From Thermogutta terrifontis (GTDB lineage Bacteria > Planctomycetota > Planctomycetia > Pirellulales > Thermoguttaceae), in the NCBI RefSeq assembly GCF_002277955.1, contig NZ_CP018477.1, forward strand, positions 1,302,001 through 1,366,000: 64,000 bases of DNA, read 5' to 3'. Positions 3 to 41,761 of the stretch are shown here, piece after piece. Under the pieces are notes generated by a model. It was not told the DNA's origin and did not search any database. It saw nothing but the letters and a program-made list of their open reading frames with translations. Each line of letters opens with the position of its first letter. The first letter of the stretch is position 1. Position numbers and translations under genes: made by a program.

Positions 3-761
3 GACTCGACCACTCCCAAGCTCCAGGTGAAGCTTTTGCGCGTACTGCAACAGCACGAATTTGAACGGGTCGGCGATACCCGGACCATTCAGGTCGATGT
101 TCGTGTTATCGCCGCAAGCAACCGCGATCTTCTGGAAGAGGTTGAGGCAGGGAGGTTTCGCGAGGACCTTTACTATCGGCTCAACGTGGTGACGGTCTAT
201 CTTCCACCCCTGCGTGAAAGGCGGGAAGATATCCCGGAACTGGTGGGACATTTTCTGCGATTGTACAACGAAAAAAACCGGCGACATGTGCCCTTTGTTC
301 ATCCGGACGCGATGCGGGCACTCCAGGCGTATGATTGGCCGGGCAATGTCCGCGAACTTCAGAATTACATCGAACGCGCTGTGATTCTCGCACCGGGGGA
401 TGAGATCACCTGCGACCTTTTACCGGACGCCGTTGTCGGAAGGCAAGCCCCTCGGCTGGGATACCGTCGCCGGAATCTGGACCGTATGATCAGGGATTTG
501 GTGTCCACCGCCCTGTCGCAGTTTTTCCCGGGCAAGGGAAACCTCTATGAAGAGATCGTAGGGCGGGTCGAGCGCGAGCTGATCTTCCAGGTCATGGATC
601 GGTGTCATCATGTTCAGATCAAAGCGGCAGCACAACTCGGGCTGAATCGCAATACCCTGCGCAAGAAGCTAAAAGAGTGGGGGATGGAACTGGATTCCGG
701 GGATCATGAGGAGGTGCCGGACACGCAAGAGAAATCGTCGGCGCCCGTCGGCGATGTTTGA
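3..761 (+). CDS. Sigma-54-dependent response regulator, C-terminal part (cut by window start)
   Basis: The reading frame is open to the first base, so this is the 3' part of a longer gene; the GTG at 27 is internal. The visible part begins inside the sigma-54 AAA+ ATPase domain (LLRVLQQHEFERVG, then the arginine-finger stretch FREDLYYRLNVV). It continues through the C-terminal lid (WPGNVRELQNYIERAVIL) and ends with a Fis-type helix-turn-helix (AAAQLGLNRNTLRKKLKEWG). NtrC-family proteins use ATP hydrolysis to remodel sigma-54 RNA polymerase at distant enhancer sites. The Walker A motif and any receiver domain lie outside the window, so the input signal cannot be named. The unusually long linker between AAA+ and HTH (about residues 150-185 of the visible part) is not conserved sequence I recognise. 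Confidence 0.9.
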   Translation, partial: DSTTPKLQVKLLRVLQQHEFERVGDTRTIQVDVRVIAASNRDLLEEVEAGRFREDLYYRLNVVTVYLPPLRERREDIPELVGHFLRLYNEKNRRHVPFVHPDAMRALQAYDWPGNVRELQNYIERAVILAPGDEITCDLLPDAVVGRQAPRLGYRRRNLDRMIRDLVSTALSQFFPGKGNLYEEIVGRVERELIFQVMDRCHHVQIKAAAQLGLNRNTLRKKLKEWGMELDSGDHEEVPDTQEKSSAPVGDV

Positions 762-870
762 TAAACCTTAAAACTCCGGTTTCTCCCGCCAGTCTCCTGG
801 GCGCAGGCGTCAACAGATTGAATCGGACAACCCTTCCTCCACAGCATCCTGTCGGGAAATCACACAAACC

Positions 871-1821
871 ATGATGGAAGTTTTGCTCTTATGCATGGCG
901 CTGGCCTACGCGGTGGTCATTGGGGCAGAGTGGCTCCGACTCCGCGGAGTGCGGATTCAACCGGGCCTGGCCATGGGACTTCTCGTGGCGGGGTTGCTGG
1001 TGCATACCGTCTGGCTGGCTTACCGGGGAGTGATGTTTTTCGAGCAATCACAATCGGGAGGCACGCCGCTGTCCGTACGGCAGGACTGGTATTACGGTAT
1101 TGCGTGGGGATTGGCGGTGGTGTGCGTCATTTGGATGAAACTTCGTCCGAAAACGCCATTCGCCCTGTTCTTGCTTCCTCCGGCGTTGGTGCTGATCGTG
1201 GTGGGGTATTTCTGGGGTGATCCGCTGCCGTTTGCCCGCCATGCCGCTTCCCGGGTGTGGGGGTTCATTCACGGGGCGTCGCTGCTTCTGGCCATCCTTG
1301 CTGTTTCGGTGGCCTTTGTGGCCGGGTTGATGTACCTCGGCCAGGTGCGGCGGCTGAAGTCCCGGCCGTTGCGGACGAGTCGATGGACACTCCCCAGTTT
1401 GGAATGGTCTCAAAAAGCCAACACACATGCTTTGGGATTGGCGCTGGCGATGCTCGCCGTGGGGATTTTCTCGGGAGCTTTTCTCAACGCGATCGAAGGT
1501 AGCAGACCGCAGGAGCGCCTCCCCTGGAGTGATCCCGTCGTGGTGGCGACCTCGGTGTTGTTTTTATGGCTGGGGACCTCACTGGTGGTGGGGCTGGTCT
1601 ATCCACCGCTGCGCGAGGGACGTCGGGTGGTGTTTTTGACCGTGGTGAGCTTCCTCTTCATGCTGGTGGTGCTCATCCTCGCCGTCATGGGGATGACGCA
1701 GCACGGACGCCCCCGCGGGACCGCGCTGCATGCGACCCCAGGTGGTGAAAGACCGGTCGAAGTACGAGGTGCAGCACAGCCGAACCAGACGAGCGACAAC
1801 GATGAACCCCCACCTGAATAA
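871..1821 (+). CDS. HemX/CcsA-like integral membrane protein
   Basis: This is a 316-residue polytopic membrane protein with about eight hydrophobic segments. The stretch WGFIHGASLLLAILAVSVAF followed by GLMYLGQVRRLK is the typical HemX/CcsA-family core, where a His sits in a helix before a Leu-rich helix and a basic loop. Its stop lies 42 bases before hemA on the same strand; a HemX-like gene directly ahead of hemA is a recurrent arrangement and suggests a role in tetrapyrrole synthesis control or cytochrome c assembly. The C-terminal 35 residues are polar and low in complexity. The CcsA tryptophan-rich WWD motif is not obvious, so HemX-like is the safer label. Two adjacent ATG codons (871, 874) are equally possible starts. 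Confidence 0.75.
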   Translation: MMEVLLLCMALAYAVVIGAEWLRLRGVRIQPGLAMGLLVAGLLVHTVWLAYRGVMFFEQSQSGGTPLSVRQDWYYGIAWGLAVVCVIWMKLRPKTPFALFLLPPALVLIVVGYFWGDPLPFARHAASRVWGFIHGASLLLAILAVSVAFVAGLMYLGQVRRLKSRPLRTSRWTLPSLEWSQKANTHALGLALAMLAVGIFSGAFLNAIEGSRPQERLPWSDPVVVATSVLFLWLGTSLVVGLVYPPLREGRRVVFLTVVSFLFMLVVLILAVMGMTQHGRPRGTALHATPGGERPVEVRGAAQPNQTSDNDEPPPE

Positions 1822-1863
1822 ACCTGGGGACCGAAATCAAAATCGGCAATTTTTGAGATAAGC

Positions 1864-3132
1864 ATGCATATTCGGGTCGTTGGATGCAGTCATCACACAA
1901 CCCCCCTGGTGGTCCGGGAGAAACTGGCTTTCGGACTCCAGGAGGTCCCGGACGTTTTGCGGGCATGGCGGCAGCAAATGGGGCCCACCGAAGCCGTTTT
2001 GCTGTCCACCTGCAATCGCGTGGAGCTTTATCTGGCCAGCGACACGTATCCACTGCCATCCGTTGGCGAAACGATCGATTTTATTCTCCGTTCTCGCGGG
2101 CAAAAGCAAGAAGAATGGGAGCGGTATTTTTACAGCTACGATCTGGAAGAGGCGGTGCGGCATCTCTTTCGGGTCGCTGCCGGACTGGACAGCATGGTGC
2201 TCGGGGAGCCGCAAATTCTAAACCAGGTCAAGCAGGCGTATCAAATGGCCGTCGATCACGAAATGGTGGGAGCCATTTTCCACCAGACTTTTCAGTACGC
2301 GCTCAAAGCGGCAAGACGGGTGGCCTCGGAAACTTTCATCCAGCAGCGGCGCGTGAGTATTCCCAGCATTGCCGTGGCCGAATTTGCTCGGGCGGTTTTT
2401 GAGCGTTTCGAGGACAAGCTCACCCTGGTGATTGGGGCAGGGGAAATGGCGGAGGAAACCCTTCGTTACCTGCGGGAGGAAGGGGCCCGGCGAATCATCG
2501 TCATCAATCGACATTTCGAACGGGCGCAAGAGCTGGCCGCTCGATGGGAAGGTGAGGCCCGGCCCTGGGATGAATTATGGAAGACGCTGCGGGAAGCAGA
2601 TGTGGTCGTCAGCACTACGGGATCGTCAGAACCGATTGTGAAACGGGAGTCCGTGCTCCCGGTGATTGCCTCCCGACCGGAGCGTCCGCTGTTTGTTCTG
2701 GATCTCGCTCTGCCGCGAGATTTTGAACCCAGTATTGGCGACCTTCCCGGTGTTTATCTTTACTGCCTGGACGACCTTCAGGAGGTGTGCCAGAAGAATC
2801 GGGAAGCTCGGGATCGCGAGCTTCCACATGCCTACACCATTGTGGATCAGGAGGTGGCCGCACTGATGAGCACGCTGTATCGGCGGGCGGCCACACCTGT
2901 CATCCAGCGGTTGCGGGCAGAATGGGATGCTGTGAAGGAGGAAGAATTACGGCGTCTTTGGCAAAAGTATCCCAACCTTGATCCGCAATTGAAAGCCGAG
3001 ATCGAAAAAAGCTTCGATCGACTTGTGGCCAAGTTGCTGCATCCGCCCCTGGCATCCATTCACGAACATTCGCACGCCAGTTCTCCCCACGAGCTTCTCG
3101 ACGCGCTGCGAAAATTGTTCCGACTGTCATAA
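1864..3132 (+). CDS. hemA: Glutamyl-tRNA reductase
   Basis: HemA reduces glutamyl-tRNA(Glu) with NADPH to glutamate-1-semialdehyde, the first committed step of the C5 tetrapyrrole pathway in the cytoplasm. The 422-residue length is normal. The N-terminal catalytic domain carries GCSHHTTPLVVREKLAF and the nucleophilic Cys50 in LLSTCNRVELYL, followed by the family signature GLDSMVLGEPQILNQVKQAY. The NADPH-binding Rossmann domain follows (VIGAGEMAEETLRYL, about residue 190). The dimerisation helices occupy the last 100 residues. The gene directly follows the HemX-like gene and probably shares its transcript. Confidence 0.97.
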   Translation: MHIRVVGCSHHTTPLVVREKLAFGLQEVPDVLRAWRQQMGPTEAVLLSTCNRVELYLASDTYPLPSVGETIDFILRSRGQKQEEWERYFYSYDLEEAVRHLFRVAAGLDSMVLGEPQILNQVKQAYQMAVDHEMVGAIFHQTFQYALKAARRVASETFIQQRRVSIPSIAVAEFARAVFERFEDKLTLVIGAGEMAEETLRYLREEGARRIIVINRHFERAQELAARWEGEARPWDELWKTLREADVVVSTTGSSEPIVKRESVLPVIASRPERPLFVLDLALPRDFEPSIGDLPGVYLYCLDDLQEVCQKNREARDRELPHAYTIVDQEVAALMSTLYRRAATPVIQRLRAEWDAVKEEELRRLWQKYPNLDPQLKAEIEKSFDRLVAKLLHPPLASIHEHSHASSPHELLDALRKLFRLS

Positions 3133-3357
3133 TCGGACCAATCTGCGGCTTGGACAGTGCTGCTTGTAATCCAAATAACACCTTTGCGGATCAATTTTGT
3201 CAGAACTCCGCACTGGAAAATGCCATATTTTTGACGGTTACCCACTCACACGGTGTGACGTCCCCCAGTTTGATCCCCCCGCGTGTGCGATCAGTGGGCT
3301 CGTGATTTGTGACGACATCTGACGCACGTAACAGTGACCCACACAGGATAGCTGGCA

Positions 3358-4473
3358 ATGATGAGTAAACGTCGTATCAGAGTTCTCGTGGTAGACGATT
3401 CGCTGGTCATGCGGCAGTTGATCAGCGATGTGCTCTCATCCGCGCCTGACATGGAGGTGGTTGGAACGGCTCCCGACGGGCGCAGTGGGCTGCGGTTGGC
3501 GGAGGAACTTCAGCCGGACGTCATCACGCTGGATATTCAGATGCCCGGCATGGATGGTCTCAGTGTTCTGGATGCCCTTGTGTCCCGACGTCCGGTCGCG
3601 GTGATCATGGTCAGTTCGTTGACGCAGGCGGGAGCCGCCATCACTTTGGATGCCCTGGAACGAGGCGCTGTCGATTACGTCACCAAACCGAGCAGTGCCG
3701 CGGCCGCTGGGAAATCTTTTGGGGTCGAACTGGTTCGCAAGGTGCGATTTGCCGCCGCGTGCGATGTGGCAAGAATCATCAGACTTCGGCGACAACGGTT
3801 ACAAGCGACGGCCATAGTGCCTTCAGCCGCAAAACTTCCTGCCGCCAAGGACGATAGCGACTGCCCGCAGCTCCGCGACGCGTGTGTGGCCATTGGGATT
3901 TCGACAGGTGGGCCACCGGCGCTGACCGCCCTGTTTCGAGATCTCAAACCGCCCATGCCTCCCATTTTTGTCGTGCAGCACATGCCGCCGCAGTTCACCA
4001 AGCCTTTTGCGTGGCGGCTCAATTCCGTGAGTGCCCTGACGGTCAAAGAGGCGGAATCCGGCGAGGTGGTCCGTCCGAACCATGCCTATGTGGCGCCGGG
4101 GGGATATCACATGGCCGTCTCCGGACGTCCGCCCGCGGTGCGGATCCGCGTTTGCGACGGTGAGCCCGTCAGTGGACATAAACCATCGGTGGACGTCATG
4201 ATGAACAGCGTGGCGGAAGTCTACCGCAAGCGGGTGCTGGGGGTCATCATGACGGGGATGGGCCGGGATGGTGCCAACGGCTGTCGTGCCATCCGCAGAG
4301 CGGGCGGATATGTCCTCGGACAGGATGAGGCTACTTCCGATGTCTACGGGATGAACAAAGTGGCCTTTGTGGAAGGCAATGTGGACCGACAGTTTTCCCT
4401 CCCCGACGGTGCCCGGCTGATCATGCAGTATGTGGAGGAGCATTTCCTCGCGCGAACCGCGGGAGTCCGTTGA
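3358..4473 (+). CDS. cheB: Chemotaxis response regulator protein-glutamate methylesterase CheB
   Basis: CheB demethylates (and deamidates) chemoreceptor glutamates during adaptation. The 371-residue protein has an N-terminal receiver domain (VVDDSLVMRQ; phospho-acceptor Asp59 in VITLDIQMPGMDG; Lys110 in VTKP). A linker leads to the methylesterase domain with its catalytic triad Ser182 (GISTGGP), His208 (VVQHMPP) and Asp304 (TGMGRDGANG). No cheA, cheW or cheR lies next to it, so it stands apart from a chemotaxis operon. A chemoreceptor (54152-56230) and fliG (56806-57801) elsewhere in the window are consistent partners. Two adjacent ATG codons (3358, 3361) follow AGGA at a spacing of about 10. 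Confidence 0.96.
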   Translation: MMSKRRIRVLVVDDSLVMRQLISDVLSSAPDMEVVGTAPDGRSGLRLAEELQPDVITLDIQMPGMDGLSVLDALVSRRPVAVIMVSSLTQAGAAITLDALERGAVDYVTKPSSAAAAGKSFGVELVRKVRFAAACDVARIIRLRRQRLQATAIVPSAAKLPAAKDDSDCPQLRDACVAIGISTGGPPALTALFRDLKPPMPPIFVVQHMPPQFTKPFAWRLNSVSALTVKEAESGEVVRPNHAYVAPGGYHMAVSGRPPAVRIRVCDGEPVSGHKPSVDVMMNSVAEVYRKRVLGVIMTGMGRDGANGCRAIRRAGGYVLGQDEATSDVYGMNKVAFVEGNVDRQFSLPDGARLIMQYVEEHFLARTAGVR

Positions 4474-4816
4474 CACGGCGCAATTGGAACGCTTCACCTT
4501 GGTCAACCCGTCGTTCGCCACCTGTCACCCTGGGGCTTCTCTGAACCATCGCCACTTTATGTAGAAACCGTGAGATGCCATGGGCGCAAGGTCTGGTAGT
4601 GGCAATTCATGAATTGCCCCAACCGGTTAACCAGCAACTGACCGCACGCGTTGCGGCACGGCGGATGAAATGGATTGTTCAACGTGGGAATGCAGACCTG
4701 ACAAGCCGGTTTCTCCGGGGTGAATTCCGCTTCCACAAAAGCCCGTGTGGACCTTCGCGTTCCTCTTCGCAGCGGAAAAGTGGGGATGTGCCAGGAAGCT
4801 TCTTGGGCGAGACACA
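4474..4816. other. Intergenic stretch with repeat units C and A
   Basis: There is no credible gene between cheB and the convergent glycosyltransferase gene. The stretch holds a copy of palindrome C (4599-4620) and, 74 bases on, a degenerate hairpin A (4694-4712), the same order and spacing as in the arrays near 33 and 37 kb. The open frames here are explained by repeat sequence. Confidence 0.7.
4599..4712. repeat. Dispersed composite repeat: palindrome C plus degenerate hairpin A
   Basis: Palindrome C at 4599-4620 has one arm starting GTGGCAATTC and the other ending GAATTGCCCC; 21 of 22 positions fit the perfect palindrome seen elsewhere. It is followed, as in other copies, by ACCGGT-like sequence. 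At 4694-4712 lies AGACCTGACAAGCCGGTTT, a decayed form of hairpin A, then CTCCGGGG. Confidence 0.65.
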
Positions 4817-10893: not shown

Positions 10894-11757
10894 ATGCCGG
10901 CAGGCCATCCAACCACCACGGTGCAGGAACGTCGGACGCAGCTTCTCGAGCTCATTCGGTCGCGTCGTTTTGCGACGCTCGACGAGCTTGCCGGCGCTCT
11001 GGGAGTATCCGAGTCCACAATCCGCCGGGATCTGGAATATCTGGAAAAGCAGGGTGATGCGAAACGGATTCATGGCGGGGCTTTGTACACGGGAAGTTCC
11101 CCCAAATTGCCCCATTTTGAAACCCGGCAGCCCATGCGGTGGGAACAGAAGCGGGCAATTGCACGAAAGGCCGTCGAGTTAATTTCGGCCGGGGATTCCG
11201 TCCTTCTTGATGGGGGAACCACAACCTACGAGGTTGCGCGGCTGTTACTGGGGATGCCGCTCCACGTGGTAACCAACTCTCTCCCCGTGGCAAATTTACT
11301 TGCTTCTGACCCCACCAGTGACCTAGTGTTTGTTGGTGGCAATGTGTGTCCCCGAACCGGGGTCACGCAGGGTCCGCAGGCCGATGCCATGATCGCCTCG
11401 CTCCGCGTCCGCAAGGCTATTTTGAGTGTGGCGTCGGCCGATGAGGAAGGGTTTTTCAACAACAACCTTTTGCTTGTGGAGACCGAGCGGGCGATGATGC
11501 GGGCGGCAGATGAGGTGATCATCGTCGCTGACAGCTCGAAGTTCGGATATCGCAGCCTTGCTCTTCTCTGCAAGCTGGAGGATGTCGATTACGTGGTGAC
11601 GGATACGGAACTTCCCGAAGCATGGCGGGAAAGGCTGACATCTGCCGGGGTTCGGTTGATTCTTGCGTCGGTTGCTGAATCGGCAGAAGAGCCAGTGTTG
11701 CGCCCGGTTCTGGATGCTCCGACACAACTTTCTCCCGTTCCGACCAATAAGGTTTGA
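10894..11757 (+). CDS. DeoR-family transcriptional regulator of the BMC operon
   Basis: A 287-residue repressor-type regulator. An N-terminal winged helix-turn-helix (about 9-63: [20 protein letters not shown], then [16 protein letters not shown] and the family signature RIHGGAL) is followed by the DeoR C-terminal sensor domain. That domain shows [33 protein letters not shown] and VADSSKFG, residues that bind phosphorylated sugars in this family. The ATG at 10894 follows AGGACGAG; an upstream TTG at 10855 is less likely. It is the first gene of the BMC operon and its stop is 6 bases from the pduL start. It probably senses a sugar phosphate from fucose or rhamnose breakdown; this rests on family and context. 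Confidence 0.92.
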
Positions 11758-22974: not shown

Positions 22975-23491
22975 AAACCGGACTGTGATCCTGCGGAAGT
23001 CACCCACCGTTCCCCACGATTGGAGAAAGCCGGCGGTGTTTGGGTTTGTCGATCACAAAAGAGGGTGCAATACAAGCCAAGATGGACGATAGAAACCCCC
23101 GCAAGGGTGACCGGTTGGCGGCTCCCTATGTACTTCGGTCGGGTCGGCCCTCGTAAGGTGGGACCCGCGGCCATTTCCTGTCGTTAAACAGACAAAGGCT
23201 CACGCGGCCCCTCCGATGCCGGCCCACCGCCGATCGGAGCTGTTTGCGTTGGAACTTCCTTTGGCGACTGAGCATCGGAAGGGACCTGCTTGTCAAGTCC
23301 GTTTTTTCCAACGACACCCGCTTGTCGGGGCCGATGAACACCGATTGATGATCCACGCTTCCTTATCGGGCATGACAAGCGTCCCCCGCCATTCCGGAGG
23401 GACCTGTTGCGCCGAAGGTCTTGTTTTTGTGCCCTCAACACGGCAGAATGGGACCACGTGCTGGGTTGAAGATTCAGGGGGCGGTGTTCAT
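22975..23491. other. Intergenic stretch with reverse-oriented repeat units
   Basis: 517 bases with no gene. 23282-23400 holds degenerate hairpins A and B in the orientation opposite to the 33 kb array. The apparent upstream extension of the yifB frame into this stretch is repeat sequence. Confidence 0.6.
23282..23400 (-). repeat. Degenerate copies of hairpins A and B, inverted orientation
   Basis: GGACCTGCTTGTCAAGTCC at 23282-23300 is hairpin A read from the other strand with one arm mismatch. GGGCATGACAAGCGTCCCC at 23368-23386 is a decayed reverse hairpin B. GGAGGGACCTG at 23391-23400 is the start of a truncated further A. Confidence 0.6.
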
Positions 23492-25030: not shown

Positions 25031-25250
25031 CCGGAGGATTTCGAGCGCGGCGTCCCGGAATCTTGAGCGGGAACTGTTCCTCAGGTGCTTTTCTTGAGGA
25101 TCCACCTGCGTGTTTGACTTCAGCGGGCACGAAAAGCGTGTTCGTTGAAGTTTACGGAGAGACCTGCCCGCCAGGTCCGCATTCTAACCTTCGATCATCC
25201 ATTTTCCTGACCGCGTTTCGTCTGCTTGGTTCGGTTCCCGGTTAAATGTA

Positions 25251-30909: not shown

Positions 30910-32541
30910 CTATCCTGCCAGGAGTTGTCGGAGCCCCATCCAGGCGCCGGCGAGTCCGGCAATGAGAAGCGCTGCGGCGGAAATCCACAGGCAGATGTCC
31001 CACAGAATTCCCGGCCGCAGGGCCGGCGAGCATTCCCAATAGCGGTAATGGAGAGCTGTACCCGCCAGCATGGGCAGCATGATGGCCTGCATGAAACCGC
31101 TGGCCACGATCAGCCCCACGGGTTCCCGATAACAAAGACACGTGATGAGGGCAAACAGGGGGAATCCGATGGCGAAAGCCGTCACCCATCGTTGAGGTGG
31201 ACCATGCTCGCCAGATTTTCCTGTGACAACAATGGCCACCGCGTCCGCCGCCACGCGGGAGTGCCCGGCCATCGCCGAGAAAAAGGTGGAATACAGAACT
31301 GCAAACGCGCCCGTCAGGAAGAAAAGTTTCGTCCAGTTTCCGAAGACAGGCACGTACATCTCGCTGAGATGGGCAATCATCTGAGCCCCGCTGGGAATCA
31401 AGTTTGCTCGATGGAGAATGGCGGCGCCGAGAATGTAGAAAGCAGCGGTAGCGAAAGTGTAAATGACCATGGACAGGAAGGCATCCGCTCGCATGACACG
31501 CATCCATCCCAGAGCTCGAGATACCCACGCGGAAGAACCATCGTAGCGTCCGGTATAGCGGGCATAGCCTTTCTCCAGGCACCAGTAGGGGTAGGTGATG
31601 AGTTCGTTGGTGCCCATTCCAATGATTCCAAAAGTTGCCAGAGCGGTGCCCAGGGCTGCCCAACGGTTAGCGCCCGGCGGTAACTGGAAGCTCAGCCCGC
31701 TGGCAAGGTCGCGCCATGTGATCGCCCAGCTCGGCTGGAATTGCAGAGCCACCACGCAAAAGATGGTCACGAGGGTGAAAACCGCCACCAGGATGGTGCA
31801 GACCCACTGGATCAGGCGATAACGCCCGTATGTCAACAGCGGAATCGACCCTAGACAGATGACCACCGCCCAGAGAAGATCGTCCGTGAGCCAGAAGGCC
31901 CCCACGCCATAATTGGGCCGCGGTCGTCCCAGCCGTTGCCGTACTTTCGTCTCGATTTCAGAACGTGCGGGAAGTTGACCGGTTTGGCGAAGTTCGGTCA
32001 GGATCTCCTCCCGCACCCGGGCGGCTTCAGTATCCCATTGCTCCTGGGCGGCGAGCAATCGCGTGAAGCTGCCGTTAATGGGGAACGCCAGCGCGAGCGC
32101 CTGGCCCACCCCGTGAGCGATTCCGCCGAGCTGAGCAAGGCTCACCACAAACATGACGACCCAGTACCACAGCATCCAGTGCACGCGAAGGCGAGGACCG
32201 GGAAGTCGGTTGATCGCCAGCAGGGTGGTCTGACCGGACTGGATGGCATAGCGCCCCAGCTCGACCTGCACAAAAACTTTGCTCACGCAGCCCAGAATGA
32301 TCAGCCAGAGCAGAGTGAACCCCGCCTCCGCACCCGTGCGGGGGGTCAAAATCAGTTCTCCAGAACCCACGACAGCCGCCGCGATGATCATTCCCGGCCC
32401 CATGCGGAGAAGCATCTCCAGGAAATGCCGGGGCGGCGGTCGCATACCTTCGTCAGTTTGCTCGGGGGAAGACGCGACCGGCCCCGCAATCACCGGAGCT
32501 GCGCGAGAGTCGTCTGCATCGCGATCGGCCATTTTTCCCAT
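30910..32541 (-). CDS. Nramp-related membrane transporter lacking canonical metal-site motifs
   Basis: A 543-residue polytopic protein of the Nramp/APC fold. Residues 1-40 are a polar N-terminus. The first helix MGPGMIIAAAVVGSGELILT aligns with Nramp TM1, but the metal-binding DPGN is GSGE (59-62). The TM6 Met-Pro-His motif is also not found; the matching region reads FAVLYSTFFSAMAGHSRVA. A soluble insertion of about 80 residues between early helices (AQEQWDTEAARVREEILTEL) is unusual. Without these ligands the substrate is unlikely to be the classical Mn2+/Fe2+. It converges with the GspE gene; its upstream side is the repeat array at 32.9-33.3 kb. Confidence 0.75.
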   Translation of the reverse strand: MGKMADRDADDSRAAPVIAGPVASSPEQTDEGMRPPPRHFLEMLLRMGPGMIIAAAVVGSGELILTPRTGAEAGFTLLWLIILGCVSKVFVQVELGRYAIQSGQTTLLAINRLPGPRLRVHWMLWYWVVMFVVSLAQLGGIAHGVGQALALAFPINGSFTRLLAAQEQWDTEAARVREEILTELRQTGQLPARSEIETKVRQRLGRPRPNYGVGAFWLTDDLLWAVVICLGSIPLLTYGRYRLIQWVCTILVAVFTLVTIFCVVALQFQPSWAITWRDLASGLSFQLPPGANRWAALGTALATFGIIGMGTNELITYPYWCLEKGYARYTGRYDGSSAWVSRALGWMRVMRADAFLSMVIYTFATAAFYILGAAILHRANLIPSGAQMIAHLSEMYVPVFGNWTKLFFLTGAFAVLYSTFFSAMAGHSRVAADAVAIVVTGKSGEHGPPQRWVTAFAIGFPLFALITCLCYREPVGLIVASGFMQAIMLPMLAGTALHYRYWECSPALRPGILWDICLWISAAALLIAGLAGAWMGLRQLLAG

Positions 32542-33591
32542 GGTTGGGAATGGAAACCGGGAACAATCTTCAGGACATCTTTGCTGTTAAAGTCTGAACG
32601 CCTGTTTGCCGGGCTTCGAGCGTCCGTCATTGTAAAAAACAGCCGCCCGCACTGCCAGGCATGGACACGCTGACCGAGTCCGTTGCGTTGTCCCCATCTC
32701 GCGTGATTGACGGGACTTCCGAAAGGTCTGGAAAATGCCCTCCCCGCGGGAGATGCGGCAAACAGGGTGCTTTTTCCCCTCCTGGAGCAATTTTTCTCGA
32801 TTTTTCGACCAAGCCAGCGAATAAGCGGGGAAAGCTTGTCACGCTCCACCTTTCCCAGATACGGACCTGACAAGCAGATCCCTCCGAAGCACGTCCCTCG
32901 GGGGTTTTGCGGAGGGGCACGCTTGTCGTGCCCGTTGCGTGTAGAGAAGCAGCGCCCGCAGTAAGACGCAGGATAGCTCCAACGGACCTGACAAGCAGGT
33001 CCCTCGGAGGTTTTGCGGAGGGGCCGGGATTCTTCCGGAGGGGCACGCTTGTCGTGCCCGGGGTCAGTTGGCATGTCGCGGCGTCAGCCTTGGTAGGGGC
33101 AATTCATGAATTGCGCCTACCGGTGAACGCTGAGAGTACCCATTCTGTGTGGAGAAGCAGACCCCTCCCGACTTCCAACATACGGACCTGACAAGCAGGT
33201 CCCTCCGAAGTACGTCCCTCGGAGGTTTTTGCGGAGGGGCACGCTTGTCGTGCCCGATCTGAGCTGTAAAGCCTTCGCGTGCGGAACGGTTCTCGCGGGA
33301 GGGCGTTCTGCAAAAGCTGCGTGTCCGGGGCGCGGCAAAACGCTAGATCACGTCGTTTTTCCCGTTCAAATACGATCTTCCCGCCCCTGGAACAGGGCTT
33401 TTTAGCTCCTTGCGTTAGGCAGTCCCATGATCCTTCTCCTGCGCGAACTCCCGATTTTATCCAGTCTCTCAATCTTTTGACCTCTCTCTCGCCAAGATAA
33501 GGCACAACGCAGATGGCTCCGATTGTCATCCGGCCCCACTGTCGTCGGGTCATGGATCAATAGGGTTCACCTGATATTTCGCAAAAAAGCC
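32542..33591. other. 1 kb gene-free region carrying a composite repeat array
   Basis: No supported gene. The centre (32863-33255) is an array of hairpins A and B and palindrome C. Many short frames in all directions translate the repeats (for example GPACQVR-like peptides) and should not be annotated as proteins. From 33260 to 33591 I recognise nothing. Confidence 0.7.
32863..33255. repeat. Composite palindromic repeat array (A-B, A-B-C, A-B)
   Basis: Hairpin A (GGACCTGACAAGCAGGTCC) occurs at 32863-32881 (one mismatch), 32986-33004 and 33184-33202. Hairpin B (GGGCACGCTTGTCGTGCCC) occurs at 32915-32933, 33043-33061 and 33237-33255. Palindrome C (GGGGCAATTC plus its reverse complement) is at 33098-33119. 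A and B have 7-bp stems and 5-base loops, ACAAG and CTTGT, which are reverse complements. Between A and B lie CTCCG and CGGAGG, which can pair as an inner stem. Confidence 0.85.
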
Positions 33592-34932
33592 TCAAGTTTG
33601 CGGCCAGAGAATGGACTGAACTTTGCGAACATCGACCTGTCGCGGGGTGGAACCGCACTGAACAGCCACTGCGGCGGCAGTACCGGCGGCCGCTCCAATG
33701 GCCATGGCAATTTGCTGAACCCGGTACGAGGCGTGGGCATCGTGGCTGCCGCTGATGCATCGTCCTGCGAGAAGGAGATTGTCAATGGTTTTCGGAACGA
33801 GACAACGATAGGGGATGTCGTACGGCTTTACCCTTTGAGCGAAGCCCTCAGCCTGACCCGGCCCCGCTGGATTGTGAATATCGATCACAAAATTCGCGCT
33901 TTTGACCACGGCATCCGGGTGTTTTCGGCCGGCGAGAAGATCATCGCGGGTGAGGTAGTATTCGCCCAGGAATCGGCGCGTTTCACGCACGCCGATCACT
34001 GCCGGCATTGCAGCAATGGAGGCGTCCTTATAACCTGGGGCAAACTGGCGAAGGACTTCAAGAACCTGGAGGGCCTGGCGTCGGCCTTCGAGTTCAGCCT
34101 TTGTCAGATCCGCCACCTTCGTGCCATCCACCTGATTAACCTGTGTGGCATTGACAACGACACAGCCAGGGCGGTGCCCGCGATACGTGCGGATGACGCC
34201 CACATTGGCCGGCAGCATACCCGCCTTCTGGGCATTGTGGACGACCTGTTCCCATGTCAAATCGCCGATTTTGATTCGGGTTGCTTCTTCTTCACTCCCA
34301 CAGAAGAGGGCGTTGTCCCAATCGACGCCAGCGACGGTGAACATGATGCTCATGGGTTGCAGAAGTCCGTCGCTAGCTCGGCCTTTTTCGAACTGAGCAC
34401 CAGCCGCGCAAGCGACATCACCATCCCCCGTAGCGTCGATGATGACTTTAGCTTCGACGGTGAAGATTCCCTCCTTGCTCAGGAATCGCACACCGTGGAC
34501 AGAGTTCCCCTCCTTCACAACATCAAAGACCCAAGAGTGGAGCAGAATCTCTCCCCCTGCTTCTTCCACAAGTGAAGCGTATTGCAAGTCCAAAAGTTCC
34601 GGGTTGCATCGCGGGCCGCCGATGCGTTTCAGGACCTCGCGGACAAAGGGGCTATCGGAAGAACCCATGAGAGGTCCCACCCGGGCATGCACGGCCATGC
34701 CACCAAGACGGCCATAGCGCTCAAGGAGAAGCGTTTTGACACCCTGCCGGGCAGCCATCACCGCCGCCGCCATCCCGGCCGGACCGCCACCACAAACAAG
34801 GACGTCTGTAGAGATCGCACCGATGGGAGCAACCTCGGCAGCCTGCAATTGATTGACCAGGGGCAAGGAAAGCCCAACGGCAGCGGTACTGGAGCCGAGG
34901 AAAAGCCGCCGGCTGAAGGTGGATCTTGGCAT
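33592..34932 (-). CDS. FAD-dependent oxidoreductase with N-terminal leader
   Basis: A 446-residue FAD_oxidored-family protein. The leader (STFSRRLFLGSSTAAVGLSL) has a twin-arginine pattern (SRRLFLG) and suggests Tat export. The FAD-binding Rossmann motif is VLVCGGGPAGMAAAVMAARQ, followed by LLLERYGRLGG. The C-terminal FAD contact is DNLLLAGRCISGSHDAHASY. The enzyme's substrate is unknown; planctomycetes encode many such proteins near sugar or sulfatase genes. The ATG at 34932 follows AAGGGGG at spacing 8; a GTG at 34941 is an alternative. It lies 76 bases after the small lipoprotein on the same strand and could share its transcript. Confidence 0.87.
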   Translation of the reverse strand: MPRSTFSRRLFLGSSTAAVGLSLPLVNQLQAAEVAPIGAISTDVLVCGGGPAGMAAAVMAARQGVKTLLLERYGRLGGMAVHARVGPLMGSSDSPFVREVLKRIGGPRCNPELLDLQYASLVEEAGGEILLHSWVFDVVKEGNSVHGVRFLSKEGIFTVEAKVIIDATGDGDVACAAGAQFEKGRASDGLLQPMSIMFTVAGVDWDNALFCGSEEEATRIKIGDLTWEQVVHNAQKAGMLPANVGVIRTYRGHRPGCVVVNATQVNQVDGTKVADLTKAELEGRRQALQVLEVLRQFAPGYKDASIAAMPAVIGVRETRRFLGEYYLTRDDLLAGRKHPDAVVKSANFVIDIHNPAGPGQAEGFAQRVKPYDIPYRCLVPKTIDNLLLAGRCISGSHDAHASYRVQQIAMAIGAAAGTAAAVAVQCGSTPRQVDVRKVQSILWPQT

Positions 34933-35008
34933 CACCAACACCCCCTTTTTTGACCTTGTTCGGTCGGGTTGAGAACCGTTCGGATGGTTCTGGCTTTATA
35001 GCCGCTGC

Positions 35009-35467
35009 TCAGGGCCCTTCATACGGTTGATTTGGCGTGGGGGGAGGAAGGACCCAGTCGTCGGGGATCACGAAGTTCTGTTCGCTGGGGCCGGTGGGCA
35101 GGTCAGCCGAGGTTTCGTAATCCGGGAATAAGAGCGTCCCCTGCGGGAAGAACTCGTCACCGGAGTCTTTCCCCGTTAAACCCGTAATGCGGACCTTATG
35201 CGGTCCGCCAATATGCCCAACGCCGCTGGTGCGGGAGTCGTATCGTCCGTTTTCGAATTGAATCGTGACAGCCGGTCCCGAATTCCCCTTGGATGCGTCA
35301 GGGATGAACGTGATCGAACCGGCTGGAACTGGCTGGCCTCGATAGGTAATGGTTCCTGAGATCCGATTCTTGCGTGGATCATTCTTTCCACACCCCTGGA
35401 AGAGAACCAAACAGCCAATGGCAGCACAGATCAACAAAGTTTGCGATTGCCGAAGCGGAGTCATCAT
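35009..35467 (-). CDS. Small lipoprotein of the planctomycete DUF1559-associated type
   Basis: A 152-residue predicted lipoprotein: the leader LLICAAIGCLVLFQGC ends in a lipobox with Cys near residue 21. The mature part has a transthyretin/carboxypeptidase-regulatory-like beta fold typical of these proteins (RISGTITYRGQPVPAGSITF, then GPHKVRITG) and a Pro-rich end. ATG codons at 35467 and 35464 follow AAAGGA. It starts 64 bases after the DUF1559 gene, the usual order of this planctomycete pair. Its role in the envelope is unknown. The frame extending to 35782 overlaps the DUF1559 gene and is not real. Confidence 0.82.
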   Translation of the reverse strand: MMTPLRQSQTLLICAAIGCLVLFQGCGKNDPRKNRISGTITYRGQPVPAGSITFIPDASKGNSGPAVTIQFENGRYDSRTSGVGHIGGPHKVRITGLTGKDSGDEFFPQGTLLFPDYETSADLPTGPSEQNFVIPDDWVLPPPTPNQPYEGP

Positions 35468-35531
35468 CCCGGTTCCTTTCCTGTCCCAAGGCTGGTGTGT
35501 CTGTCGAGAAGGGTGCGAACACATACCCCTG

Positions 35532-36413
35532 TCATTGCGACTGGAGTGACTCTCCACCATCCTTGCTGCCCAGGGCAAGGTAAATGCCGAAATCGATTGT
35601 CTCGGAAACGAAGCGTGCCGACCCATCGGCATTGACGAATTGGCATCCTCCGGGATGGAAACTACCGAAAGCGATTCCATTCCAGATCGATTCGTTTTTC
35701 GAGTTGATCGGGAAGCGAAGATATTTGGACAGAAGGTAGAGGGTGCCACGACTATCCTGAAATTTGCCCCGCGTCCAGGCACGGTACTTGGTCATCTGCG
35801 ACCAGGAAATCTCCCCAAGCAACAAAGTGTTTGAAGTCCCGTCGGTGATATCCGCCATACGGCTCGAATACTGCCACATGATTCCCTGATCACATTCGCC
35901 ACCAAAAGCCTGGGTTGTGTTACGGCATTTGTAGGTCTGGTTGGTCGTGGGGTTAGTACCATACGGTCCGAGGATCCCGTAGTAATGAACTGTGTAAACC
36001 TTCTGGCCACCGGGGTTCGGCCAGATTTCCGAAGCATATTCCGTTCGGTCCTGAATTCCCGACGGGCAGATATAGACTGGGATGCGGTTGGCGGCGTGCT
36101 TGATCTTGCCCGGCATTGTATAACTGCCCGCCGTCCAGTCCATCTGGTCGTAAATCGGCTTTTGCTCGATGAAGGCCAGGATGGACGCCGTCCACCCCAA
36201 TTCGTTGGCGATCATTCCGGGCAAGGGAAACTGACCCCATACGTCGTGGTAGTTCTGAAAGCCAAGGCCCAATTGGCGGAGATTGTTGACACACTGAGAC
36301 CGCCGGGCGGCTTCGCGAGCCGCCTGCACCGCAGGCAACAAGAGCGCAATCAGAATGCCAATAATGGCGATGACGACCAATAATTCCACAAGTGTGAATG
36401 CCTTACGCTTCAT
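35532..36413 (-). CDS. DUF1559 protein with type IV pilin-like N-terminus
   Basis: A 293-residue member of the large planctomycete DUF1559 (SBP_bac_10/prepilin-like) family. The N-terminus [20 protein letters not shown] is a prepilin peptidase site plus pilin helix (cleavage before Phe6, Glu5 of the mature form present). It is followed by the family's [20 protein letters not shown] and GLGFQNYHD. The globular part contains [11 protein letters not shown], and the end [19 protein letters not shown] is the standard DUF1559 C-terminus. It is probably processed and surface-exposed. The ATG at 36413 lies 6 bases from AGGAGG. It pairs with the lipoprotein gene downstream. Confidence 0.93.
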
Positions 36414-36987
36414 CATGGGCCTCCTCATTCGACGGTGATCCCGGTAAAAAGATGTGAAACGATGAAACCGTTAAACCATGACCAACAGCATTCCCGCAAA
36501 GAGACCCTACCACTCAGTGAGAACCTCTCGCAGAGGTGAATGATATACCTGCTTGGTCGAGGCTACCCCTTTAACTTTGGGCCGGTCTCTTGCGGCTGGG
36601 TGCCTACGGGCGGGAACATGAAGTCTCTTTCCCTCGGCAAGGGTAATTTTTCCAATTCTTCAAGTGTAAAGGACCCTTCCTAACGAGTCAACAAACTGGC
36701 GTTTTGGCCGAGCCCCACTTTTTGTAAGGATGTGTGAGGGGCCAAAGGCTTAATCTGTCGTAGGGGCGATTCAGGAATGGCCCCTACCGGTGAACGCTGA
36801 GAGTGCTTTTTCTGTCGAGAGAAGCAGGCGCCTCCCCAGCCCCACTACACAGACCTGACAAGCAGGTCCCTCCGGCATTTTTGCGGAAGGGCCGGGATTC
36901 TTCCGGAGGGGCACGCTTGTCGTGCCCGGGGTCAGTTGGCATGTCGCGGCGTCAGCCTTGGTAGGGGCAATTCATGAATTGCCCTTA
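36414..36987. other. Gene-free region with a composite repeat array
   Basis: 574 bases without a gene between DUF1559 and the IS630 derivative. The right part (36763-36985) is a C-A-B-C repeat array; 36430-36750 holds nothing recognised. Confidence 0.65.
36763..36985. repeat. Composite palindromic repeat array (C-A-B-C)
   Basis: Palindrome C variants at 36763-36784 and 36964-36985, hairpin A at 36851-36869 (first base changed) and hairpin B at 36909-36927. From 36889 to 36982 the sequence is identical over 94 bases to 33023-33116. The C to A linker (ACCGGTGAACGCTGAGAG) is shared with the linker after 33119. Confidence 0.85.
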
Positions 36988-37701
36988 CTGCTCCGTCACA
37001 GGATAATTTTGGGATAAACGGACTTGAGTTTGCCGCGGGCATCTTCCGCGGTGATTTGCCAGTCGACGCCGCGCTGCCGAGCGTTGAGGTCTCCCGACCA
37101 CGTTGCAATTTCCTCCTGAAGAAGACGTAGCTCCCCCAGGCGACGCCCCGCCACACACTGCCGGGTCGAACAGCTCAATTCGCACTCCACCACGTTCAGC
37201 CAACTGCCGTGTTTCGGCGTGTAAACAAACTCAATGCGGCGAACGTACTGACGAGCCCGCTCCGCTGGGAACACCTCGTAAAACGCCCCCTTCGTGCGCG
37301 TGTTCAGGTTGTCACAGATCAGCGTGATCCGCTCACAGTCCGCGTAACGCCCGTCCAAAAGCGCCGACGCCTCCGTCGCTCAGTCGCTCTTGGTCCAAAA
37401 AATGCTGAAGCATCTTCTCCACCGTCTGCCGCCGACACCCGAACGCTTCGGCAATCCGTTGGTCCCTCCAAGCCGGATCGTCCGCGTCCGCCTTCAGCAG
37501 AATCTGAGCGCGACGGACCTTACGGCTCGTTGCCTTCAGCTTGCGAATGACCTCCTGACATTTCTGACGTTCCTCCTCGGTCAGCCGGACAATATACGTC
37601 TTTCGCGTGGCAATCGTCCTTGGTGCGGCGTAAAGGAAACGGCCACGAAGTTCATCCGATCCTACCCAACAGAATCCGCATCTTTTCCTGTGACGGGGCA
37701 C
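36988..37701 (-). mobile_element. IS630-family internal-deletion derivative with intact ends
   Basis: A 714-base element flanked by TA on both sides (36986-36987 and 37702-37703), the IS630 target duplication. Terminal inverted repeats: TGCTCCGTCACAGGATAA (36989-37006), and reading inward from 37700 on the other strand TGCCCCGTCACAGGAAAA, matching at 16 of 18 positions. Full-length relatives are usually about 1.1-1.2 kb. The inside encodes only the N-terminal helix-turn-helix part and the C-terminal part of a transposase. It sits directly against palindrome C (36964-36985). Confidence 0.8.
36996..37680 (-). pseudogene. IS630 transposase remnant (HTH and C-terminal DDE parts joined out of frame)
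   Basis: Two minus-strand fragments of one transposase. The upstream fragment (about 37680-37370) encodes TYIVRLTEEERQKCQEVIRK, SRKVRRAQILLKADA and QRIAEAFGCRRQTVEKMLQH, the N-terminal winged helix-turn-helix of IS630. The downstream fragment (about 37385-36996) encodes CERITLICDNLNTRTKGAFY, YTPKHGSWLNVVECELSC and the C-terminal end, carrying the second Asp and Glu of the DDE triad. The middle of the protein, including the first catalytic Asp, is missing and the two parts are in different frames. It cannot make an active transposase. Family loss is estimated at 150-200 residues. Confidence 0.82.
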
Positions 37702-41359: not shown

Positions 41360-41761
41360 GTTCGCGGCTCCTTTGTGATGCAAAACAGACGAGAGCTTTT
41401 CCCCGCGCACGACCTTCCCAAATTAAAATTCCCGGCGGTGACGGCGTGGCGGTCGATGTTCCTTTTTAAAAGTATGATTAGGGAATCGGGTTCAGGCAAC
41501 CTTGCGCCGTGCCCGGCCAGCCCCATTTTTTCCTGTCTCACCATGAGGTCATACCGAGTCTCACGGCGCCTTGCGCGGAAGTGAGCTCGAGTCCGCAGGT
41601 ACCTACTAGCGGGATCAACATTGCAGGATAGTGCATTTCACCGACCGGACGTAGTCCGCTTGATGAGGCTCCTTTTTCAAGATAGGGGCAATGTGTGAAT
41701 CGCTCCTACCGCACGTGAGATACAGCCTTTGGCCTCTCGCAAATTCTTATCGCGAGACGTT
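41360..41761. other. Intergenic stretch with a decayed palindrome C
   Basis: About 400 bases without a gene. The only structure seen is a decayed palindrome C at 41685-41706 flanked by TA and CTACCG as in other copies. Confidence 0.5.
41685..41706. repeat. Decayed palindrome C
   Basis: GGGGCAATGT then GTGAATCGCTCC, followed by TACCG, keeps the edges of palindrome C with several central changes. Confidence 0.5.

Follow-up and report, generated by a model that had tools for sequence, protein, structure and literature searches.

An array of hairpin repeats lies between two minus-strand genes of Thermogutta terrifontis, a thermophilic planctomycete (Pirellulales, Thermoguttaceae). The R1 chromosome is circular and comprises 4,810,751 bases (PMC5673643), and the genome (G000) is represented by one contig. 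The window, i.e., the whole 64,000-nucleotide stretch that was analysed, corresponds to G000:C1:1302001-1366000, and the array occupies window positions 32863 to 33255. Its modules are REPs of three kinds: A (a GGAG tag plus hairpin in the minus-strand reading), B (GGAG plus GGGCACG-CTTGT-CGTGCCC), and C (a GTAG-tagged palindrome). The flanking genes and the modules found in the window are as follows (window coordinates).

4596-4623, no strand assigned: REP C, 2 mismatches
4694-4716, minus strand: REP A, decayed, 4 mismatches
23278-23300, plus strand: REP A, 2 mismatches
23368-23390, minus strand: REP B, 3 mismatches
25156-25178, plus strand: REP A, decayed, 4 mismatches
30910-32541, minus strand: Nramp-like gene (Pfam E 1.7e-6, but under the Pfam cut-off), one flank of the array
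32863-32885, minus strand: REP A, 1 mismatch (GCAGATCC; hairpin 32863-32881)
32911-32933, plus strand: REP B, exact (hairpin 32915-32933)
32984-33006, minus strand: REP A, exact hairpin (32984-33002), tag with 1 mismatch
33037-33059, plus strand: REP B, exact (hairpin 33041-33059)
33093-33120, no strand assigned: REP C, 1 mismatch
33184-33206, minus strand: REP A, exact (hairpin 33184-33202)
33233-33255, plus strand: REP B, exact (hairpin 33237-33255)
33592-34941, minus strand: FAD-dependent oxidoreductase gene, other flank of the array
36760-36787, no strand assigned: REP C, 3 mismatches
36851-36873, minus strand: REP A, 1 mismatch
36905-36927, plus strand: REP B, exact (hairpin 36909-36927)
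36961-36988, no strand assigned: REP C, 1 mismatch

A sequence-only reading of this DNA had described two hairpins with complementary loops and a 22-base perfect palindrome, arranged in a fixed order. The two hairpins hold up, with exact copies of A at two sites and of B at four, except that the first A (32863-32881) carries one mismatch; their loops (ACAAG and CTTGT) are indeed reverse complements, and their tags (CTCCG and CGGAG) are inverted. The perfect palindrome turned out to be the genome consensus of C and not the form of the four window copies seen: the copy in the array ends in GCGCC, and those at 4596, 36760, and 36961 are imperfect too. Nor is the order fixed, as the array reads A-B, A-B-C, A-B and modules are shuffled across the sampled stretches. 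As for the "at least six places" counted earlier, five clusters were recovered at the scan cut-off (4596, 23278, 25156, 32863, and 36760), the sixth being a weak C match with four mismatches at 41685.

The spacings in the window array (B-50-A and B-33-C) are atypical. The B-33-C block occurs twice in the window (33037-33120 and 36905-36988), about 3.9 kb apart, and its 33-nt B-to-C spacer (33060-33092 in one of the blocks) is identical in both; this recurrence perhaps reflects a recent local duplication or conversion. The junction preceding the B at 33233 appears to contain a shortened A-type copy (TACGTCCCTC), and so does the first junction (CACGTCCCTC). The decayed A at 25156-25178 lies in a gap between collinear matches that measures 278 nt in T. 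terrifontis and 67 nt in the same-genus genome G061.

Repeat classes and paired units across the genome

The window array is a small piece of a genome-wide population, in which many hundreds of short hairpin repeats fill intergenic spaces. Whole-genome scans located 467 sites for A (≤2 mismatches), 318 for B (≤2 mismatches; 156 forward and 162 reverse), and 269 for C (26-mer, ≤3 mismatches), or 248 when C was searched as its GTAG-bearing 28-mer with ≤3 mismatches; reversed-pattern controls gave no site for A, B, or C. Within 464 kb, GGAG-tagged hairpins numbered 96 and GTAG-tagged hairpins 29, against 5 and 1, respectively, in one order-2 shuffled copy. A census of 81 stretches (1.664 Mb, including the window) comprised 605 modules of five kinds (265 A, 134 B, 122 C, 42 D, and 42 E). 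Only one of these modules falls mostly within a predicted gene, compared with about 442 expected under random placement (gene calls from a greedy codon-usage caller, with 73% of bases called coding), in agreement with the intergenic placement that the window had suggested.

One REP with a GGAG tag and a CTTGT loop has A and B as its subfamilies, and C is a separate GTAG-tagged REP. Read on opposite strands, A and B are one element, consisting of the GGAG tag, a 7-bp stem, the CTTGT loop, and the second 7-bp stem strand; the complementarity of their loops and of CTCCG with CGGAG arises because they are inverted copies of this element. Of 110 distinct A/B copies (drawn from the 464 kb at ≤5 mismatches to four consensus hairpins), 87 retain the tag, which places A/B outside the GTAG superfamily, and four stems are dominant among A/B copies: GGGCACG, GGACCCG, GGACCTG, and GGACGTG. 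The consensus of C is the 28-mer GTAGGGGCAATTCATGAATTGCCCCTAC, with GTAG at its start.

The A-B unit proposed from the window proved to be a variable tail-to-tail junction, and the constant unit is a head-to-head doublet with a 35-nt spacer. In 75 of 98 adjacent A>B< pairs the spacer is exactly 35 nt long despite a mean identity of 57% among 69 distinct 35-nt spacers, and we therefore regard as the unit an 81-bp inverted doublet (tag-hairpin A, 35 nt, hairpin B-tag) with its tags outward, an orientation called head-to-head in the terminology of PMC3733652. The opposite junction, A<B>, is variable (8 to 13 nt in 67 of 94 cases). Arrays consist of successive doublets with short variable junctions, and the three REP classes are mixed in them. 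The likeness to REP/BIME elements is thus supported, as these are tagged, extragenic, inverted palindromes that alternate in orientation within regularly spaced arrays. Hybrid A-E units have a spacer of exactly 59 nt in 30 of 34 cases, the first 35 nt of which resemble the A-B spacer, and D and E stand back to back, 2 nt apart in 25 of 31 cases. Paired units appear to be what multiplies. A TGGATNATCCA-like dyad occupies the exact center of the 35-nt A-B spacer.

The stems of individual A/B hairpins covary. In an alignment of 107 of the 110 copies (three poor matches were excluded), standard pairs fill 92.8% of stem cells, compared with 80.1% after shuffling; because the copies had been chosen for resembling paired consensus hairpins, this level is inflated. 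Changes affect both stem sides in 121 cells, compared with 45.1 after shuffling, and pairing drops to 16 to 53% when the partner is slid by 1 to 3 columns. Three stem pairs have 29, 45, and 45 double changes, and these changes largely mark the four subfamilies and hence represent few events. Two measures of covariation out of five gave weak results, namely, the number of stem pairs with a double change (5 versus 3.3; 33 of 500 shuffles as high) and the number of further pair types (14 versus 11.4; 11 of 500 shuffles as high). Conserved stem pairing in a palindrome of 20 to 40 bp is a mark of REPs, and the internally compensated stems seen in the window are accordingly upheld, and the genome-wide search, with its many copies and stem covariation, excludes a family of only these few copies with no covariation.

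The clusters are concentrated around dnaN and gyrB (575-4768 of the chromosome). These genes alone served to place the origin, since GC skew did not resolve the replichores cleanly. Of the 130 clusters, 70 lie on the arc that runs from 4.2 Mb across position 0 to 0.9 Mb and that accounts for 27 of the 81 stretches; noncoding sequence there has 5.4 clusters per 10 kb compared with 2.0 elsewhere, and a cluster has 6.5 modules compared with 2.6. No equally rich arc arose in 5,000 permutations; the arc boundary had been set after inspection of the data, but the test was maximised over all arcs of equal size.

RAYT gene, turnover, and competing explanations

The REP-associated (Y1/RAYT) transposase that the sequence-only reading had proposed to look for is present once in the genome, flanked by D and E and not by A/B or C. 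PF01797 (Y1) has a single, weak match in the whole genome (896625-896948, minus strand; 25.8 bits versus a cut-off of 23), held by an open reading frame for a 195-aa product, P0001 (G000:C1:896451-897035). P0001 contains HYH and YTHQN (YxxxN) motifs and matches NCBIfam REP_Tyr_transpos (83 bits; cut-off, 80) and PDB 4er8 'TnpArep' (E 2e-7); a Pfam scan at E ≤ 1e-5 assigned it to no family. The D and E elements that flank the gene in inverted orientation are two-hairpin GGAGTG REPs (GGAGTGCGGCGATTTATCGCCGC and GGAGTGCGGGGCTTTAGCCCCGC). Among 67 relative RAYT loci from other genomes (Verrucomicrobia, Planctomycetes, Acidobacteria, and other records), a GGAG[T/C]GC hairpin is found in 40, and in 26 of these it flanks the gene on either side; the RAYT clade of P0001 therefore has a GGAG foot. 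Within L235, the stretch containing the T. terrifontis RAYT gene, the nearest A/B doublet is about 12 kb away from it, and the A/B covariance model detected no A/B REP at E ≤ 1 in 99 other Y1/RAYT-type loci (retrieved with PF01797 or P0001 as query, weak hits included). Since the RAYT is flanked by D/E and none of these loci carries A/B, A and B are orphan REPs on present evidence. A CT cleavage site is described for TnpAREP (PMC8266576); CT is infrequent at every flank position of A and B (nowhere exceeding 24% of the 218 A copies or 14% of the 116 B copies), and we do not claim such a site for them.

Many genomes of the family (81 of 119) have Y1 matches. None was found at E ≤ 0.1 in G061, despite its A/B/C modules and many D/E/A blocks, in an assembly of 1,120 contigs that could miss a repeat-flanked Y1 gene. 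Y1-like open reading frames were also noted in L149 and L154 (both G024; L154 is a weak match) and in L155 (G026), and the tagged hairpins near them differ (cgagCCACCAGC.., gtagAACAAGTC.., and gtagGCCGGGT..), which suggests that RAYT/REP sets have been replaced within the family.

The repeats are narrowly distributed and turn over quickly. At E ≤ 0.01, the A/B covariance model (R1) matched 3 of the 119 family genomes, i.e., T. terrifontis, G061, and, marginally, G056 (0.009); these counts are lower bounds because the filters were strict and only 62 candidate pieces were scored per genome. The C 28-mer (≤3 mismatches) likewise occurs in 3 of the 119 genomes, with 99 sites in G061 and one in G018 in addition to the 248 in T. 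terrifontis, and the same-genus genomes G024 and G050 were matched by neither R1 nor this 28-mer. In a comparison of 59 G061 contigs (429 kb) with the sampled T. terrifontis stretches, 17 of 18 orthologous clusters anchored on both sides differ in module string, a string being counted at ≤4 mismatches (5 for C) such that a decayed module just beyond the cut-off scores as a difference; the sole unchanged cluster is a lone C. Empty G061 sites are under-sampled here, because most of the contigs were chosen for modules or array-stretch matches. Arrays differ by whole units between the two genomes: the difference between L217 and L229 is exactly one array unit of 93 nt, and between L297 and L233 it is an extra composite block, C-A-B-A-A-E-D, in T. 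terrifontis. No clean insertion of a single doublet with a bare empty site was found in this comparison, and gain and loss could therefore be largely recombinational.

We consider it probable that the repeats are REP elements in BIME/REPIN-type mosaic arrays, in which non-autonomous doublets were spread by RAYT-type mobilisation and then by recombination or slippage within arrays. In this model, the tag and hairpin would be recognised by a RAYT/TnpAREP-type HUH (Y1) transposase specific for single strands, which would cut the doublets and copy them into intergenic space; recombination between units, or slippage of the template, would then make arrays longer or shorter. A/B may now be served in trans by the D/E-flanked RAYT (there are hybrid A-59-E units) or may be the amplified legacy of a lost RAYT. 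A more specific version is possible but unlikely, namely, that A/B form an orphan REPIN class, with an exact-length 81-bp doublet and no RAYT of its own, that spreads in trans through the RAYT of another REP class (hybrid A-59-E) or through tailed phages and whose arrays preferentially amplify near the origin.

The exact complementarity of the loops and of the tags, together with the covariation of single hairpins, would also fit a structured RNA, in which A and B are kissing-loop partners or the arms of one large cruciform or RNA fold and are selected as a unit, as the sequence-only reading had envisaged. The doublets speak against this. In 130 distinct head-to-head doublets with an exact 35-nt spacer (75 from T. 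terrifontis, 52 from G061, and 3 from the IMG/VR contig L338), the loops are complementary in 64, compared with 69.3 expected under independence, and in only 1 of the 67 pairs with a non-consensus loop; the tail-to-tail pairs behave similarly (79 of 153 distinct pairs versus 84.2 expected; 2 of 76 with a non-consensus loop), and their tags pair in 131 cases versus 130.9 expected. Where the A and B stems differ in sequence, the positions are mostly left mismatched (of the 130 doublets, just 5, 33, 55, and 0 show pairing at positions 7/75, 9/73, 18/64, and 19/63, respectively), the 17 spacer position pairs are paired no better than after shuffling (1,160 of 2,210 versus 1,165.7), and no covarying long hairpin spans the whole doublet in this set. 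The Rfam 15 covariance models had no match up to E 1 in window positions 32400-37400. Given the lack of A-B coupling in either pair orientation, neither the kissing loop nor the large cruciform is maintained, and both are rejected; each REP folds alone, and selection for a structured RNA is extremely unlikely.

A further reading is that of transcription terminators or mRNA 3'-end stabilisers selected at gene ends: the hairpins are extragenic, REPs elsewhere can facilitate termination (PMC2817692), and A, read tag-first, is often followed by GCTTTTC (T in 48 to 57% of 218 copies at positions 3 to 6 past the hairpin), but B is mostly followed by G/A without a T-run (116 copies). The 115 module-bearing regions (58 tandem, 41 divergent, and 16 convergent) track intergenic length (55%, 30%, and 15% of intergenic bases, respectively) and thus show no 3'-end preference; this absence of a preference for convergent regions rules against a terminator role, which is very unlikely also in view of the difference in 17 of 18 clusters between same-genus genomes. 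It is doubtful, too, that the arrays are chromosome-organising sites with putative gyrase or nucleoid-protein binding, like enterobacterial BIMEs, whose function involves the binding of gyrase, IHF, or Pol I, and are hence kept near the origin. The fixed 35-nt spacer with its central TGGATNATCCA-like dyad and the enrichment in the dnaN-gyrB arc (70 of 130 clusters; none of 5,000 permutations as extreme) point in that direction, but turnover is fast, positions are proportional to intergenic length, and a mutational or dosage cause fits the clustering too. The doublets, being inverted repeats of constant length for which the 99 loci yielded no cognate RAYT, also resemble MITEs; a derivation from an ordinary DD(E/D) insertion sequence, as MITE-like remnants unrelated to RAYTs, is nevertheless very improbable, as the tag plus hairpin, the alternating orientation, the mosaic arrays, and the mixing with RAYT-flanking REPs are REP/BIME traits and the few sites that were aligned showed no evident target-site duplication.

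Described REP systems and phage contigs

As a kind, these repeats belong with the described REP, BIME, and REPIN elements; at the sequence level, none of four REP consensus strings occurs in the open-access literature searched. The same literature contained no report of Thermogutta REPs and no match for REP with Planctomycetota, but Di Nocera et al. (2013; PMC3733652) nonetheless report GTAG-tagged REPs in Planctomycetes (R. baltica). The departures from described REPs are the GGAG foot, the unequal doublet ends without cross-doublet compensation, an A/B class that lacks a cognate RAYT, and the crowding of clusters near the origin.

The enterobacterial REP/BIME families Y and Z2 (PMC2817692) share with the T. 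terrifontis repeats tagged extragenic palindromes, two inverted subfamilies that alternate, regular spacing, and arrays of variable length, whereas T. terrifontis has a family with a GGAG tag, a CTTGT loop, and a 35-nt spacer, two further REP classes mixed in, a concentration near dnaN-gyrB, and no cognate A/B RAYT found. Like REPINs (Bertels and Rainey 2011; PMC3116915), the unit is an extragenic inverted doublet in which the length and not the sequence of the spacer is conserved; in contrast to them, the two doublet ends differ systematically (A versus B), and because the halves show no compensatory changes, the long hairpin reported for REPINs in that study is unsupported here. Excision of doublets in P. 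fluorescens is also reported there. C shares the GTAG tag with the REPs of Di Nocera et al. (2013), which likewise occur as HH, TT, and HT dimers and in mixed clusters, but the GGAG of A/B and D/E is not among the tags listed there (GYAG, GYRG, GTRG, GTMG, and GTGG). The hybrid BIMEs of Stenotrophomonas (PMC2817692) resemble the present arrays in their compensated stems and in mixing REPs, which in their case derive from different RAYTs, whereas three classes mix in T. terrifontis with only one Y1/RAYT match in a complete genome. P0001 itself, with its HYH and YxxxN motifs and inverted flanking REPs, conforms to the REP-associated tyrosine transposases (RAYT/TnpAREP) and REPtrons described in PMC6006769 and PMC8266576, but its flanks are GGAGTG two-hairpin elements and the published consensus is GT[AG]G. 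The Y1 class with a CnGA foot, described in PMC6006769 as occurring mainly in Planctomycetes, Acidobacteria, and Proteobacteria, has a Y----Q motif, unlike P0001.

The REP/RAYT studies considered here rest mainly on Proteobacteria. In T. terrifontis, a thermophilic planctomycete with a complete chromosome, many hundreds of copies from three or more REP classes occur together with hybrid doublets and a single detected RAYT, and a second genome of the genus is available for comparison. Two standing questions thereby become testable: whether one TnpAREP serves several REP classes in trans and whether arrays grow by transposition or by recombination.

Outside the family genomes, the exact C palindrome is present in nine IMG/VR stretches, and the exact A/B doublet pattern (34- to 37-nt spacers allowed) occurs in one IMG/VR contig, L338, three times, each with a 35-nt spacer; the genes neighboring these doublets include those for a terminase large subunit and a portal protein. 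R1 also matched L340, L339, and, weakly, other IMG/VR contigs, and a TGGATNATCCA-like spacer core is common to L338, L340, and T. terrifontis. The dnaN-gyrB pile-up and the doublets on a phage contig suggest links to replication and horizontal transfer. L338 is a tailed-phage contig; its doublets (479-676 and 2514-2594) border, at either end, a segment of two genes that lies upstream of the gene for the terminase large subunit. L340 has three 81-nt A/B-type doublets with 35-nt spacers at 434-608 and 11244-11324. A further IMG/VR contig, L329 (14.8 kb), in which a motif scan found no RAYT-like open reading frame, carries seven exact copies of the 28-base C palindrome.
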